IMG/VR virus record: IMGVR_UViG_3300002180_000034
Span: 1-35,890 of that record
DNA length: 35,890 bases
From: a virus
Direction: 5' to 3' (one strand)
Shown here: positions 114-35,078 of the stretch, in pieces
Layout: each line of letters opens with the position of its first letter
How positions within the stretch are numbered: position 1 is the first letter of the stretch
Notes under the pieces: model-generated
What the model saw: only the letters and a program-made list of their open reading frames with translations
Database searches by the model: none
Told to the model about the DNA's origin: nothing
Position numbers and translations under genes: made by a program

Positions 114-692
114 ATGGTTGTTACGCAAGTGCATTTTGCTAAATTAGCTGGGGTTACAAGAGCAACAGTTGATAGAAAAATTAAACAAGGTGTATTAATT
201 AAAAACGAACAAGGGAAATTAGATCCTGAAAACGAAAAAAATAAGAAATATTTGCATAAGCGAATGAAAGCGAAAGATAAAGAAGAATTGAAAGAATCAT
301 TTGAGCCAAAAAGTGAAACAGACAAAGAAATAAAGCATTTTGCAAGTTTAGCAACAATCGAGCAACAGTTAAAAGTTGATAAACTTGAGGCGGACGTAAA
401 GTTAAAATTGTTATTACTTAAGGAAAAACGTGGAGAGTTGATATCAAAAAAGAGGTTGGGAGATGTTTGCTTTTCTTATTTAGATTTATTGAATAAAAAT
501 TTATTAGTTATCCCACAAGTGTTTTTGGATAGGGTTGAAAATTACGTTAAACATCACAAAGATTCAAAAATATCGAAAAAAGACATGATGAATGACATAG
601 CAGGATATTTAACAAAAGCTATAACTCAAACAAAGAAACAAGTTGAGAAAAAAATGGCAACCAAATATGAAGAGGACATTGATGAAGACTGA
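114..692 (+). CDS. Terminase small subunit, Nu1-like DNA-packaging protein
   Basis: The 192-aa product probably binds the packaging site and delivers viral DNA to the large terminase subunit. Residues 3-30 look like a winged helix-turn-helix (FAKLAGVTRATVDRKIKQG), as in lambda Nu1 and related terminase small subunits. A charged middle with coiled-coil character follows (about residues 75-125, EQQLKVDKLEADVKLKLLLL). Length is close to lambda Nu1 (181 aa). I chose ATG 114 over the in-frame ATG 78 because AAAAGGAG lies just before it and the protein then begins directly at the HTH. The end overlaps the large subunit gene by 11 bases, the usual coupled arrangement. Identification rests on the HTH and the neighbour; the family is weakly conserved in sequence. 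Confidence 0.8.
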   Translation: MVVTQVHFAKLAGVTRATVDRKIKQGVLIKNEQGKLDPENEKNKKYLHKRMKAKDKEELKESFEPKSETDKEIKHFASLATIEQQLKVDKLEADVKLKLLLLKEKRGELISKKRLGDVCFSYLDLLNKNLLVIPQVFLDRVENYVKHHKDSKISKKDMMNDIAGYLTKAITQTKKQVEKKMATKYEEDIDED

Positions 693-2523
693 TATTGATA
701 GATCATATTTTTCAAACCAGATTCAGGATTTAACAGATAAAAGGTTATTTTTAAAAGTATCAGAATGGGCAGAAGAAAAACGAGTAATCCCTTTGGGTTT
801 AAGTCCTTTTCCTGGATTATGGCAAAATAGCAGAACGCCTTTTTTAGTTGAAATCATGGATTGTTTTTCCATGAGTGATGACACACGTGAAGTTGCATTT
901 ATGAAAGGTGCACAGATTGGTGCAACAACAGGAGTATTAGAAAATATCATTGGATATATTATTGATCATGATCCAGCTCCGACGATGTATGTTTCGGCTG
1001 ATAAAGGTTTAGTTGAATCTTCAATTGAATTGAAATTAGACAGAATGTTGGATTCAACAGGTTTGGCAGATAAAATATTTTCACAATCTGAAAAAAAACA
1101 TAACAAAAAAACAGGTGATACAAAGGCTCGCAAGGAATTTGCGGGTGGTTTTTTAATTGCAGCAGGTGCACAAAGTGCTCCAAAATTAAGAAGTATTTCA
1201 ATAAAATGCTTATTATTAGATGAAACGGATGGTTTCCCGATAACAGTAGGGAAAGAGGGTGATCCAATTGAGATTGCAGAAAAAAGAACAACAGCATTTG
1301 AAGCAAGCAAGAAAGTTTTATATATTTCCACACCTTTAGAAACTCAAACAAGTAAAATTCAAGCATTATTTTTACAAGGGGATCAGAGATATTTTTATAT
1401 TCCTTGTCCAGAATGTGGTTATATGCAAAGGTTAGAATTTAAAAATTTGAAATATTCTCAGTATGAAGATAAAGCTTTAGATTATGACAGCGTTTATTAT
1501 GAATGCAAAGAGTGTAAGTTCCAAATAAAAAATTTTCACAAAGATTACATGCTAGAAAAAGGAGAATGGAGAGCAACAGCAAAAGCTAAAAAGCCAAATT
1601 ATAAAAGTTATCATTTAAACAGTTTATATTCCCCTGTAGGAATGTTAAGTTGGGAAAAGATTTGTGAAGAATTTATAAATGCAAAAGATAAGCCATTGAA
1701 GTTGCAGGCTTTTTTAAATTTAAGGTTAGGTTTAACATGGGAAGAGAGGGGGGAAGCTCCTAAGTATGAAAGAATAATGTTAAGGCGAGAAAATTATGAT
1801 GTTGGTATTATTCCAAATGAAGTTTTATTTTTAACATTAGGTATTGATGTGCAAGAAAACAGGCTTGAGTGTGAATTGGTTGGGTGGTGTAAAGATAAAA
1901 TTAGTTATAGTGTTGATTACAAAGTATTTCCTGGAAATACTGCAATTCCTGATAGTAAAAGTTGGCAACAATTATCAAATTATTTATTGAAAACATTTTA
2001 TAATTTTGATAAAACGAAAGAATATTCAATTTTAATTGCGATGATAGACAGTGGATTTAGAACGAATATAGTTAATGCATTTTGTGATCAGTTTCAAAAT
2101 GTTCATCCAATTCAAGGAGTAAATTATTTATTAAGGGGTGAAGTATTCAGGACACACAAAACAAAATCCCATAATAACATGACTAGATTTGATTTGCAAA
2201 CGAATGTATTAAAGGATGAAATTTATTCTTATTTAAGATTAGGAAAACATTCTGATAACACTTTTCCGAGGGGATATTGTCATTTTCCTTTAGAATATGA
2301 TGAGAAATTTTTTAAAATGTTAACATCAGAAGAAAAACGTCAACAAATTTCAAAAAAAACAGGATATAAGACATATAGTTATTTTTTACCTCATAAAACT
2401 AGAAATGAAGCTTTAGATTGTAGAGTATATAATCTTGCAGCAGTATATATTTTTAGATGGATGTTGTCTCAAGAAGAAGATTTGACATGGGAAACTTTTT
2501 GGAAGATTATGAAAAATAAATAA
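682..2523 (+). CDS. Terminase large subunit, lambda gpA family ATPase/nuclease
   Basis: This 613-aa protein is the packaging motor that pumps DNA into the prohead through the portal and cuts it. The ATPase has a deviant Walker A (KGAQIGATTG, Lys75) and a Walker B (CLLLDETDGFP, Asp180-Glu181). A four-cysteine zinc-binding insert follows (Cys242, Cys245, Cys275, Cys278), typical of the gpA family. A nuclease-domain strand LGIDVQENRLECELVGW contains an acidic residue near position 389. Length is near lambda gpA (641 aa). ATG 682 was chosen because GAGG lies six bases upstream, and it overlaps the small subunit gene; the frame remains open further upstream from a TTG at 643. A terminator follows about 50 bases after the stop. 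Confidence 0.95.
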   Translation: MKTDIDRSYFSNQIQDLTDKRLFLKVSEWAEEKRVIPLGLSPFPGLWQNSRTPFLVEIMDCFSMSDDTREVAFMKGAQIGATTGVLENIIGYIIDHDPAPTMYVSADKGLVESSIELKLDRMLDSTGLADKIFSQSEKKHNKKTGDTKARKEFAGGFLIAAGAQSAPKLRSISIKCLLLDETDGFPITVGKEGDPIEIAEKRTTAFEASKKVLYISTPLETQTSKIQALFLQGDQRYFYIPCPECGYMQRLEFKNLKYSQYEDKALDYDSVYYECKECKFQIKNFHKDYMLEKGEWRATAKAKKPNYKSYHLNSLYSPVGMLSWEKICEEFINAKDKPLKLQAFLNLRLGLTWEERGEAPKYERIMLRRENYDVGIIPNEVLFLTLGIDVQENRLECELVGWCKDKISYSVDYKVFPGNTAIPDSKSWQQLSNYLLKTFYNFDKTKEYSILIAMIDSGFRTNIVNAFCDQFQNVHPIQGVNYLLRGEVFRTHKTKSHNNMTRFDLQTNVLKDEIYSYLRLGKHSDNTFPRGYCHFPLEYDEKFFKMLTSEEKRQQISKKTGYKTYSYFLPHKTRNEALDCRVYNLAAVYIFRWMLSQEEDLTWETFWKIMKNK

Positions 2524-2675: not shown

Positions 2676-2704
2676 TTGACTTTTATTTTTTTATAAAGTA
2701 TAAT
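2676..2704 (+). promoter_or_regulatory. Sigma70-type promoter for the structural operon or leader RNA
   Basis: TTGACT at 2676-2681 and TATAAT at 2699-2704 are separated by exactly 17 bases. Transcription would begin at about 2711. It lies in the gap between the terminase terminator and the gpW-like gene and points into the leader RNA and late genes. It shares its -35 hexamer, 17-base spacing and the AGTATAATAT context with the promoter at 35050-35078 on the other strand. Confidence 0.85.
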
Positions 2705-2710
2705 ATTAAG

Positions 2711-2809
2711 GTTTTGAATTGTGATAGATCCCTGCTACGCAGGGATATTTAAAAAGCAATAAAATGTGTATGCGTTAACTGGGGTTGATGGCTGCATTTT
2801 ATTGTTTTT
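2711..2809 (+). ncRNA. Structured leader or small RNA ending in a terminator-like hairpin
   Basis: The 100 bases after the promoter code for no protein but fold strongly. Hairpin 1 is ATCCCTGC-TAC-GCAGGGAT (2728-2746), a perfect 8-bp stem. Hairpin 2 pairs AAAAGCAATAAAATG (2752-2766) with CATTTTATTGTTTTT (2795-2809), and inside it GTTAAC and GTTGAT can pair around a TGGG loop (with G-U pairs). Hairpin 2 ends in TTGTTTTT, as in an intrinsic terminator. A promoter, two hairpins and a terminator in 130 bases look like a small RNA gene, or an attenuating leader ahead of gpW and portal. The family is not recognised. Confidence 0.6.
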
Positions 2810-2829
2810 AAAATATTAAAAGGTAAAAC

Positions 2830-3060
2830 ATGAGTATATATACACAACAAGAATTGATTGATAAAATTAAAGCTCTTGATGTTGATATTGCAACAGCTCA
2901 AAGTATTTTTGAATATGAATTAGACACTGGGCAAGGTGATCAACGAGCTAGACGACAAAAGTTATCTGAGCTTTTAAAATTAAGAGATTATTGGGAAGAT
3001 CAATTGAATCGATTGCAGAATTCTAAATCTGGTTTATTATATGGAAAATTTAAAAGATGA
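2830..3060 (+). CDS. Head completion / head-tail joining protein, gpW-like
   Basis: This 76-aa protein lies between the large terminase and portal genes, exactly where lambda has W (68 aa). It is largely helical with charged heptads (QQELIDKIKALDVDIATAQ and KLSELLKLRDYWEDQLNRL) and ends in a basic tail, GLLYGKFKR. GpW-type proteins fit under the portal after packaging and prevent DNA leakage while providing the site for tail attachment. The ribosome binding site AAAGG is modest. The stop overlaps the ATG of the portal gene (ATGA), pointing to coupled translation. The family call rests on size, position and general character. Confidence 0.75.
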   Translation: MSIYTQQELIDKIKALDVDIATAQSIFEYELDTGQGDQRARRQKLSELLKLRDYWEDQLNRLQNSKSGLLYGKFKR

Positions 3061-4682
3061 AAATGTTTGATAACGTATTATCATTTTTCAAAAGAAAAAA
3101 GAAAAGAATAAATCAAGACACATCACGTTTAATTGATGAAAATAATACATTTCGAGCTATTTTTTCTGACATTTCTAGTGCTGCTTCTTTTATTAATGTG
3201 TTTGATGGAAGTAAAATTAAAGGAAGTTTAAATTATCCTTCTTTGCTTTCTTTGGATACAACTCGATTAAGAGAAAGAAGTCGAACAGCAATATTTGATT
3301 CTCCTCAATCTGCCGCTGCTTTAAATCGATTGACTGAACACGTAATTAATTCTGGACTTACGTTAGAAATAACGCCAATGTGGAATATTGTAAAACCTAA
3401 AAGTGATGGAGCTGTTGATAAAGAAGAAAGGAAAAAATGGACAAAAAAAGTTGAACAATATTGGAAAATATTTGCAAATTCCAAAGATGTTAGTTATGAT
3501 AAAAAAAAGACATTTCAACAATTGCAATCAATTTTTTATTATAACATCCTTAGAGATGGTGAAATTTTCATTATGTTAAGATATTCTGCTGAAGCAAACC
3601 AGTTAAATCCATTAACAATTCAAATTATTGATCCAGCAAATATTCAAGATCCAGATTATAAAGATATTAAGAAAGCTAAAAATCAAGGAAATAAAATTTT
3701 AGATGGAATTGAATTTAACAAAAAGGGTGAAGAAGTTGCATATTATGTTTGTGATTCTATAACTTTAAAAACTGTACGAGTTGAAAAGAATGGAACTAAA
3801 AGTAAACGAGTTTTTATGCTTCACCCTATGTTGACTGAATATTCAGAACAAACAAGAGGAATTCCTTTTTTATCAGGTGTTTTGCATGAGATGCAAAAAA
3901 TCACAGATTATGGATTATTAGAATTGCAGGCAGCAATTATTAATGCAGTTTTAGCAGTTTGGGTTAAGCCTTCTGAAACAAATGATTCTAGTGCTCCTTT
4001 TGCTGGCGTTAGGAAAAAAGATATTTATCAAGAAGATGCGAATGATACTGTTGTAGATCAAAAGCCTAATGATGCAAGATTTTCTGATGGTGGTTTAATC
4101 ATTCAAAATTTAAAAAAGGGTGAAAATGTTGAAAGTTTTGATACCAAACGTCCTAATGTTAATTTTGATGGTTTTGTTACCTCTGTTCTTAAAAATCTAA
4201 GTAGTTCATTGTCAATACCGATGGAAGTTTTAACTATGACTTTTGGTCAGAATTATTCTGCAAGTAGAGCTTCTTTATTATTATTTTGGACAAATGTTAT
4301 AAAACACAGATCGAATTTTATTGCAGATATTTTAAATCCAATATTTGAAATGTGGATGGTTGGAGAAGTTGAAGCAGGTCGAATTTTAGCTCCTGGCTTT
4401 CAAAATAAATTAATCAGAGAGGGGTGGTTGAATAAAAGATGGATTGGCATTTCTCAACCATCAATTGATCCATTAAAAGAAGGAAAAGCGGTGACATCAA
4501 GATTAGCAGATGGTTTAACAACGAGAGAAATTGAATCACAAAAATATAATGGTACAAGTTTTGAAGATAATGTTGTAAAATTAAAAGAAGAAAATGAGTT
4601 GTTATCAAAAGCAAATGAACCAATTGTTGGTGTTGATAGTAAAAAAAATAATGAGGAGGCTGATAATGAGCCTGGAGCATAA
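3057..4682 (+). CDS. Portal protein, lambda gpB family
   Basis: The 541-aa product forms the dodecameric ring at the unique capsid vertex through which DNA enters and leaves. Its length matches lambda gpB (533 aa), and recognisable blocks include DSPQSAAALNRLTEHVINSG near residues 79-98, a central stretch with YNILRDGEIFIMLRY (about 161-175), and the C-terminal signature SIPMEVLTMTFGQNYSASRA (about residues 382-401). It overlaps the gpW-like gene by ATGA; a second ATG at 3063 is possible. It is followed, with a short overlap, by a small beta-rich protein gene, whereas lambda goes directly from B to the protease gene. Confidence 0.95.
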   Translation: MKMFDNVLSFFKRKKKRINQDTSRLIDENNTFRAIFSDISSAASFINVFDGSKIKGSLNYPSLLSLDTTRLRERSRTAIFDSPQSAAALNRLTEHVINSGLTLEITPMWNIVKPKSDGAVDKEERKKWTKKVEQYWKIFANSKDVSYDKKKTFQQLQSIFYYNILRDGEIFIMLRYSAEANQLNPLTIQIIDPANIQDPDYKDIKKAKNQGNKILDGIEFNKKGEEVAYYVCDSITLKTVRVEKNGTKSKRVFMLHPMLTEYSEQTRGIPFLSGVLHEMQKITDYGLLELQAAIINAVLAVWVKPSETNDSSAPFAGVRKKDIYQEDANDTVVDQKPNDARFSDGGLIIQNLKKGENVESFDTKRPNVNFDGFVTSVLKNLSSSLSIPMEVLTMTFGQNYSASRASLLLFWTNVIKHRSNFIADILNPIFEMWMVGEVEAGRILAPGFQNKLIREGWLNKRWIGISQPSIDPLKEGKAVTSRLADGLTTREIESQKYNGTSFEDNVVKLKEENELLSKANEPIVGVDSKKNNEEADNEPGA

Positions 4683-25734: not shown

Positions 25735-25737
25735 AAA

Positions 25738-25809
25738 CTGCTCTCTGTGGACTCGAACCACAAACCTATCGGTTAACAGCCGATTTCTCTACCATTGAGC
25801 TAGAGAGCA
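25738..25809 (-). tRNA. tRNA-Asn (anticodon GTT)
   Basis: Read on the - strand this 72-base stretch makes a full cloverleaf: acceptor TGCTCTC/GAGAGCA, D arm beginning GCTCAATGGTAGAG, anticodon arm ATCGG-CTGTTAA-CCGAT with GTT in the loop, variable AGGTT, and T arm TGTGG-TTCGAGT-CCACA. The discriminator is G and no CCA is encoded. It lies in the convergent gap between the late operon and the - strand endolysin gene. Asn codons AAT/AAC are very frequent in these proteins, so it may support translation of phage genes. Confidence 0.95.
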
Positions 25810-25821
25810 ATATAATTCCAA

Positions 25822-32256: not shown

Positions 32257-32296
32257 AATAACTCCTTAATATTAATGATAAAGAACAATATGATTT

Positions 32297-32337
32297 AAAA
32301 AAATAGAAAGGTAGGGATTTGCACCCTACACTTTCTA
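32297..32337 (-). terminator. Intrinsic terminator on the - strand
   Basis: On the - strand, TAGAAAG-T-GTAGGG pairs with CCCTAC-CTTTCTA around a 7-base loop (TGCAAAT): 13 base pairs with a single bulged T, followed by seven T residues. It would end transcripts of the upstream block (promoter 35050-35078, genes 35018 to 32469) before the primase gene. Confidence 0.9.
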
Positions 32338-32468
32338 CCAAAAAGATCACTAATCCTTTTGTGATGAATTTTATACACTTACCAAGAGAGTTTTGGTATC
32401 ATCATTAAGTTTCTATTTCCACACCATTAGTAGTTACTCAAATTTGTGGTGATCTCTCTAGATGTTTA
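32338..32468 (-). ncRNA. Candidate structured non-coding RNA upstream of the terminator
   Basis: The 131 bases between the 32469 stop and the terminator have no ORF of note but several helices (coordinates on +): AGATCAC (32344-32350) with GTGATCT (32449-32455), TACCAA (32380-32385) with TTGGTA (32393-32398), CCACA (32419-32423) with TGTGG (32445-32449, or the alternative CACCA/TGGTG), and ATCAC (32346-32350) with GTGAT (32361-32365). Some exclude each other, as in a switch. It may be an RNA processed from the operon end, an antiterminator controlling read-through to the primase, or only an elaborate 3' UTR. Not a tRNA. Confidence 0.45.
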
Positions 32469-35049: not shown

Positions 35050-35078
35050 ATTATACTAAATTTTCAAGATAAAGTCAA
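35050..35078 (-). promoter_or_regulatory. Sigma70-type promoter on the - strand
   Basis: On the - strand TTGACT (35078-35073) and TATAAT (35055-35050) are 17 bases apart. It begins within the stop codon of the polymerase gene and drives the 55-aa gene and those after it. The -35, spacing and AGTATAATAT context match the promoter at 2676-2704. Confidence 0.85.

Follow-up and report, generated by a model that had tools for sequence, protein, structure and literature searches.

A conserved promoter and a structured, putatively attenuating leader between the terminase and head genes of a contractile-tailed phage

In phage lambda, transcription that starts at the late promoter pR' meets the terminator tR', yields the short 6S RNA, and is carried onward by Q antitermination. 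This arrangement is described in part in PMC4604602. The putL RNA of phage HK022, which consists of two stem-loops close behind a promoter (PMC9378689), offers another point of comparison, as do the short trans-acting RNAs of phages such as PreS, 24B_1 and IsrK (PMC12197685). The int-alpA RNA (RF02996) has a counterpart at the TerL junction of Vibrio phage 1.225.O. In the literature, we found nothing relevant on a described RNA at the junction between the genes for the terminase large subunit (terL) and the gpW-like adaptor.

The DNA analyzed here, referred to as the window, is the IMG/VR virus record IMGVR_UViG_3300002180_000034, positions 1-35,890 (35,890 bases). Based on Pfam and phrog annotation, its genes are arranged as in a contractile-tailed phage. 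The plus strand encodes terS, a GpA-type terL, a gpW-like adaptor, a lambda-family portal, an S49 protease, and the decoration and major head proteins, followed by the sheath, tube, tape measure, baseplate and holin. The minus strand encodes an endolysin, helicases, a primase and a polymerase. The element under study lies downstream of terL (682-2523, plus strand; Pfam GpA_ATPase, 7.6e-72, and GpA_nuclease, 1.7e-65; phrog_15) and upstream of the first gene of the head operon, the gpW-like head-tail adaptor (2830-3060, plus strand; phrog_118 head-tail adaptor, 2.8e-4; phrog_9104, 3.7e-6), which is followed by the portal gene (3057-4682, plus strand; Pfam Phage_portal_2, 7.6e-62). Between the terL stop (2523) and the gpW start (2830) there are 306 non-coding bases. 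The best cellular match of TerL is a Spirochaetales MAG (49%); Spirochaetales were not adopted as the host, given that the metagenomic relatives are of mixed origin.

Elsewhere in the window, a tRNA-Asn gene (GTT) is located at 25737-25810 on the minus strand, with the plus-strand genes of the lysis side on one flank and the endolysin gene on the other. A second candidate for a structured non-coding RNA occupies the gap between two early genes at 32292-32464, also on the minus strand. Its predicted fold (z -3.65) is branched, is closed by AGAGAGATCAC/GTGATCTTTTT, and is followed by a hairpin and then TATTTTTTT, this being the strongest hairpin with a T-run on the minus strand of the window; no Rfam family matched it above threshold.

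The junction contains a sigma70-type promoter, TTGACT-17-TATAAT, at 2676-2704 on the plus strand (hereafter P2676). With 11 of 12 consensus matches it has the top promoter score within 3 kb, and promoters of the same kind recur at this junction position in relatives, so that the consensus promoter placed here by an earlier note on this DNA is borne out. The exact TTGACT-N17-TATAAT string is found twice in the whole window, each time at an operon start; the second copy (35050-35078, minus strand) fronts the leftward early operon. Copies with at most two mismatches number 17, which corresponds to the chance level. Upstream of P2676, the terminator scan located a strong terminator-like hairpin at 2572-2598 on the plus strand (11 bp, then CGTTTTT). 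At -19.2 kcal/mol it is the strongest hairpin with a T-run on that strand; it probably closes the terS-terL unit and would isolate the unit that begins at P2676 from it. An inverted copy of the -10 region is also present at 2613-2623 (TATTATACTTT, against AAAGTATAATA at 2695-2705, 11 of 11 positions), and possibly represents a weak divergent promoter.

Placing the start site by the position of the -10 hexamer, we predict a 5' leader RNA of about 118 nt (2711-2829, plus strand) that ends at the gpW start codon. Two hairpins were predicted within it. Hairpin 1 (2728-2746, plus strand) has 8 bp, ATCCCTGC-TAC-GCAGGGAT. Hairpin 2 (2752-2809, plus strand), the candidate terminator or attenuator, is built in two parts: in the RNAfold structure, 2752-2768 pairs with 2793-2809 to form an outer stem of 17 pairs, which leads through an internal loop to an inner stem of 7 bp capped by a tetraloop. 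It ends in TTGTTTTT (2802-2809), 20 nt upstream of the gpW-like gene, whose moderate ribosome site AAAAGG (2818-2823, plus strand) stands 6 nt before the ATG at 2830. Between P2676 and gpW there is no ORF of at least 20 codons. These results agree largely with the description given in the earlier note. Its GC-rich 8-bp hairpin and its stretch of about 130 non-coding bases were recovered as such. Its long hairpin is present and does end at the T-run, with 17 instead of 15 pairs because the A-run pairs with the U-run, and the ribosome site that it called weak is modest and not absent.

The RNA from 2705 to 2815 folds at -34.2 kcal/mol, compared with -19.7 +/- 2.9 in shuffled sequences (z -4.95; none of 200 shuffles reached this value), and the full leader has a z of -5.2. 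The opposite strand folds as well (z -5.54), as expected of inverted repeats. Thus the energy alone cannot set the strand, which is set by the promoter and the T-run. The part of hairpin 2 that ends at the T-run has an energy of -14.2 kcal/mol; in shuffled genomes, among about 270 T-run sites per genome, approximately two reach -12 or lower and 0.7 reach -15 or lower. As in an intrinsic terminator, the hairpin is stable and the U-run follows it directly. In contrast to a classical strong terminator, the base of the stem (CAATAAAATG/CATTTTATTG) is rich in A-U and not in G-C pairs, and the U-run lies partly within the stem. Hairpin 2 was not among the results of a consensus terminator scan that called for at least three G-C pairs and allowed loops of up to 8.

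To gather relatives, we searched IMG/VR and a collection of genomes for TerL and portal proteins; those of the phages obtained are mostly 30-50% identical to the window's TerL or portal. We compared 37 TerL/gpW junctions, namely the window and 36 relatives. The pattern TTGAC-(17-19)-TAnnnT is present in 21 of the 37; in 200 shuffled junction sets, the average was 0.27 and the highest count 4. As the junctions share descent, the figure of 21 counts sequences and not independent events. A promoter score of at least 10 was obtained for 18 of the 37 junctions (0.8 expected, maximum 3). In 13 junctions, one of them that of the window (125 nt), 111-137 nt separate the -10 hexamer from gpW, and the distances cluster near 120 nt. 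In other relatives the -10 hexamer ends 4-6 nt (L008, L082 and L147) or 20-27 nt (L010, L165 and L166) before gpW, so close that the promoter there can serve nothing but the head genes. Because the same kind of promoter is found at the same position in the relatives, P2676 is very probably the promoter of the head operon. The earlier note had named a leader of this operon as the alternative to a small RNA gene; the conserved promoter position favors the leader, and the interpretation given in the note is, as a whole, supported in part.

The same comparison bears on the possibility that the unit is an RNA moron, a small RNA gene standing on its own; its product of about 100 nt would target phage or host RNAs in trans, and most transcription of the head genes would start at another site. 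Such a gene would account for a compact promoter-RNA-terminator unit without an ORF, and the 3' side of terL does take up independent units in relatives (L011, L111-L113, and the Vibrio phages with an int-alpA-like RNA). However, L008, L010 and L082 keep the promoter without an RNA behind it, which argues that the promoter belongs to the head genes. The promoter scan also gave nothing convincing in the stretch from hairpin 2 to gpW, where the sole further candidate scores 9 of 12 and overlaps the hairpin, and the sequence of the RNA is not conserved. We therefore regard a stand-alone gene as doubtful, noting that our confidence in this reading overlaps with that in the others because a terminated leader also makes a small RNA.

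Sequence relatives of the window RNA were sought in several collections. In Rfam 15 it scored below the gathering threshold of every family, and a lax threshold gave matches at chance level alone. A blastn search against 50,697 phage records gave no match, and a pattern search of IMG/VR found neither the region of hairpin 1 nor the loop side of hairpin 2. Two covariance models were built for junction RNAs of relatives, R1 for those of L002, L003, L006 and L149, and R2 for those of L145, L146, L153, L154 and L184. Neither matched the window junction, the best scores being 3.1 bits for R1 (with filters off) and 0.5 bits for R2. For hairpin 1, the window and L009 showed a likeness (p 0.043 in a set of 21 pairs) that was not significant once corrected. 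As these searches gave no homologue of the window RNA, covariation backs neither its fold nor its terminator.

In the junctions of the relatives, we found differing material: covarying RNA folds, terminator-like hairpins, or predicted ORFs of about 38 codons. L002 and L003 are 89% identical over the junction segment and 93% over its terminator part, compared with 80% in the flanking terL, 63% in gpW and 62% in the portal gene. A covariance model of this pair also recognizes the terL/gpW junction of L149 (51.9 bits) and that of L006 (29.3 bits). A reading of the L002/L003 segment as plain non-coding RNA from its conservation alone was rejected, since the same stretch is an open frame that overlaps the gpW start, and an ORF is present at this place in most relatives. 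In L145 (3562-3679), L146 (2736-2853), L153 (3540-3656), L154 (3476-3592) and L184 (2093-2206), a sequence-only alignment yielded a common branched fold in which 86% of cells are paired, against 31-43% for slid versions, and both sides have changed in 16 of the 38 pairs. This covarying fold holds the invariant stretch GTCCGGCG[AG]GTGA. Neither the R1 nor the R2 fold was matched in Rfam, and a search with R2 over 393 genomes from the phylum of G001 found nothing. The pair counts of alignment A9 were discounted, as it was fitted to the model and included a weak minus-strand match of L142 away from the junction. Alignment A6 was also fitted to its model, and the unfitted alignment A8 provides better evidence.

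Many junction segments are at the same time open frames of 31-60 codons, typically 38, whose end coincides with the start codon of gpW. They may encode micro-proteins or be by-products of a folded RNA. Directly after the promoter, small ORFs (about 38-41 codons) are present in L138-L140, L142, L145, L146, L153, L154, L171, L176, L184 and L080, with a stop that overlaps the gpW start or lies within a few bases of it, and several of them share an RRVTPREA-like motif. In group A, the differences are spread across the three codon positions (150/158/173), and the synonymous and nonsynonymous codon pairs number 44 and 223, respectively. These substitutions give no sign of constraint at the protein level and the pairing is kept, so that we lean toward an RNA over a micro-protein in this group. 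The window is without such an ORF and fits neither the R1 nor the R2 fold. We also considered that its leader is the decayed remnant of the micro-ORF of the relatives, with hairpins that are incidental. The frequency of these ORFs among the relatives, and the fact that gpW of the window likewise begins ATGA, agree with this idea; however, a fold z of about -5 is unexpected for a decaying sequence and the window retains no recognizable trace of an ORF, making a remnant quite improbable.

A terminator-like hairpin with a T-run is found directly before gpW in L002, L003, L149 and L142; in L137, a distance of 60 nt separates it from gpW. Leaders are folded (z < -2) in 10 of 22 junctions, window included, and in only some of the leaders does a U-run follow the last hairpin. 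The latter two observations would suit a plain structured leader without real termination, serving mRNA protection, as an RNase III type site, or for feedback binding by a head protein, and the long two-part hairpin 2 likewise fits processing or protein binding. In contrast, the window, L002, L003, L149 and L142 have the U-run directly at the hairpin, and we consider a leader without termination possible, if somewhat doubtful.

The window resembles its relatives in the promoter, in the position and length of the leader, and in a strong last hairpin, and has no detectable sequence in common with them. A TerL tree that predates the portal search places six relatives with long junctions in one group (85/88), which does not include the window, so the tree does not establish that its leader and theirs have a common origin. 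It is conceivable, though we think it unlikely, that in a broad range of uncultured phages the terL/gpW junction is a dedicated site of fast-evolving structured RNAs (those of the window, R1 and R2) behind a conserved promoter, and that these would act as RNAs themselves, for instance in trans or in head assembly or packaging, and not as mere leaders. A role as packaging RNA in the manner of the phi29 pRNA was set aside, its position alone speaking for it.

Other cargo was observed behind terL in the relatives, where the region is an insertion hotspot; the identities given here were judged by sequence. L011 has an NrdR-like zinc-ribbon ORF, L111-L113 have DNA-methylase-like ORFs, and L118 has a small HicA-like ORF that possesses a separate promoter. 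An int-alpA-like RNA occurs in Vibrio phages (L122, at 2886-2953, and L126-L132), at the terL junction or elsewhere; it matches RF02996 with an E of 0.018, under the gathering score. Its hairpin loop (ACGTAGA, CTCAGA or TCATAGC) is complementary to a downstream stretch, with co-change across 8 sequences, and the genes after it include T5orf172-like (IPR018306), putative HNH endonuclease and other genes. We dropped this RNA as support for the window RNA, as it accompanies an inserted gene. The terL/adaptor junction of L121 (Acinetobacter phage Scuro) comprises 345 non-coding nt (3469-3813) with a deposited terminator annotation; it had no Rfam match and no relative in the phage collection, and its fold was no better than those of shuffled sequences.

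The reading that we prefer, and hold with moderate confidence, is that P2676 starts the head operon and that the hairpins belong to its 5' leader, in which hairpin 2 would act as a terminator or attenuator giving both an RNA of about 100 nt and read-through. It builds on the promoter sequence and its conserved position, the hairpins, the order of the operon, and the absence of an ORF. Transcription of terS-terL would stop at the hairpin at 2572-2598, and host sigma70 RNA polymerase would restart at P2676, the folded leader of about 118 nt being its first product. Hairpin 2 and its U-run would then form an intrinsic terminator that works partially or conditionally; transcripts that end there would be the short RNA, and those that pass it would express gpW, the portal and the genes behind. 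In this scheme the start site, termination and its degree, and any regulator are predicted elements. A terminator in the leader is not a general requirement of the clade, because many relatives have a short leader or an ORF there. For the late operon to be held back in full, as the earlier note proposed, efficient termination at 2809 and an antiterminator of the phage would both be required. No Q- or N-like antiterminator was found among the annotated genes of the window, several of which are without a match; the record may also be incomplete.

Altogether, the locus suggests that phages with lambda-type terminases that are known from metagenomes alone have a transcription boundary, so far undescribed, where their packaging genes give way to the head genes. 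The boundary consists of a conserved promoter followed by a variable and often structured stretch of about 120 nt, which includes two covarying folds that Rfam lacks. Should the leader attenuate, the phages could time or dose their head proteins without a promoter switch, in parallel to late control in lambda.

Among the known systems, the int-alpA RNA shares with the window RNA its location at the TerL junction, as seen in Vibrio phage 1.225.O; however, the window gave no match to it, and the Vibrio copy precedes an inserted gene beside the head genes and not gpW directly. The trans-acting phage RNAs are alike in being short and in possibly having a promoter of their own, and differ in that the promoter in the relatives of the window also drives the downstream operon. 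In common with the HK022 putL RNA, the leader has two stem-loops close behind a promoter, here that of a structural run of about 23 kb, as would be expected if a put-like RNA acted in cis to modify RNA polymerase, enabling it to read a long late operon nonstop. We consider this reading very improbable: put elements are on early operons, a U-run right on stem 2, as a direct terminator, would make little sense for an antiterminator, and relatives with leaders of 4-27 nt do without one.

The preferred reading, an attenuating leader behind a head-operon promoter, finds its nearest parallel in lambda pR'-tR'. The window element lies between terL and the head genes, whereas that of lambda precedes the lysis genes; its terminator is a predicted one, and no Q gene and no qut or pause element were identified in the window. 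As no Q-type factor or site was found, we liken the element to lambda pR'-tR' and do not claim membership in that kind. At the sequence level, the likeness comprises a strong sigma70 promoter, a terminator-like hairpin shortly downstream, and a long operon of late structural genes behind it, an arrangement that predicts a short RNA and regulated read-through.
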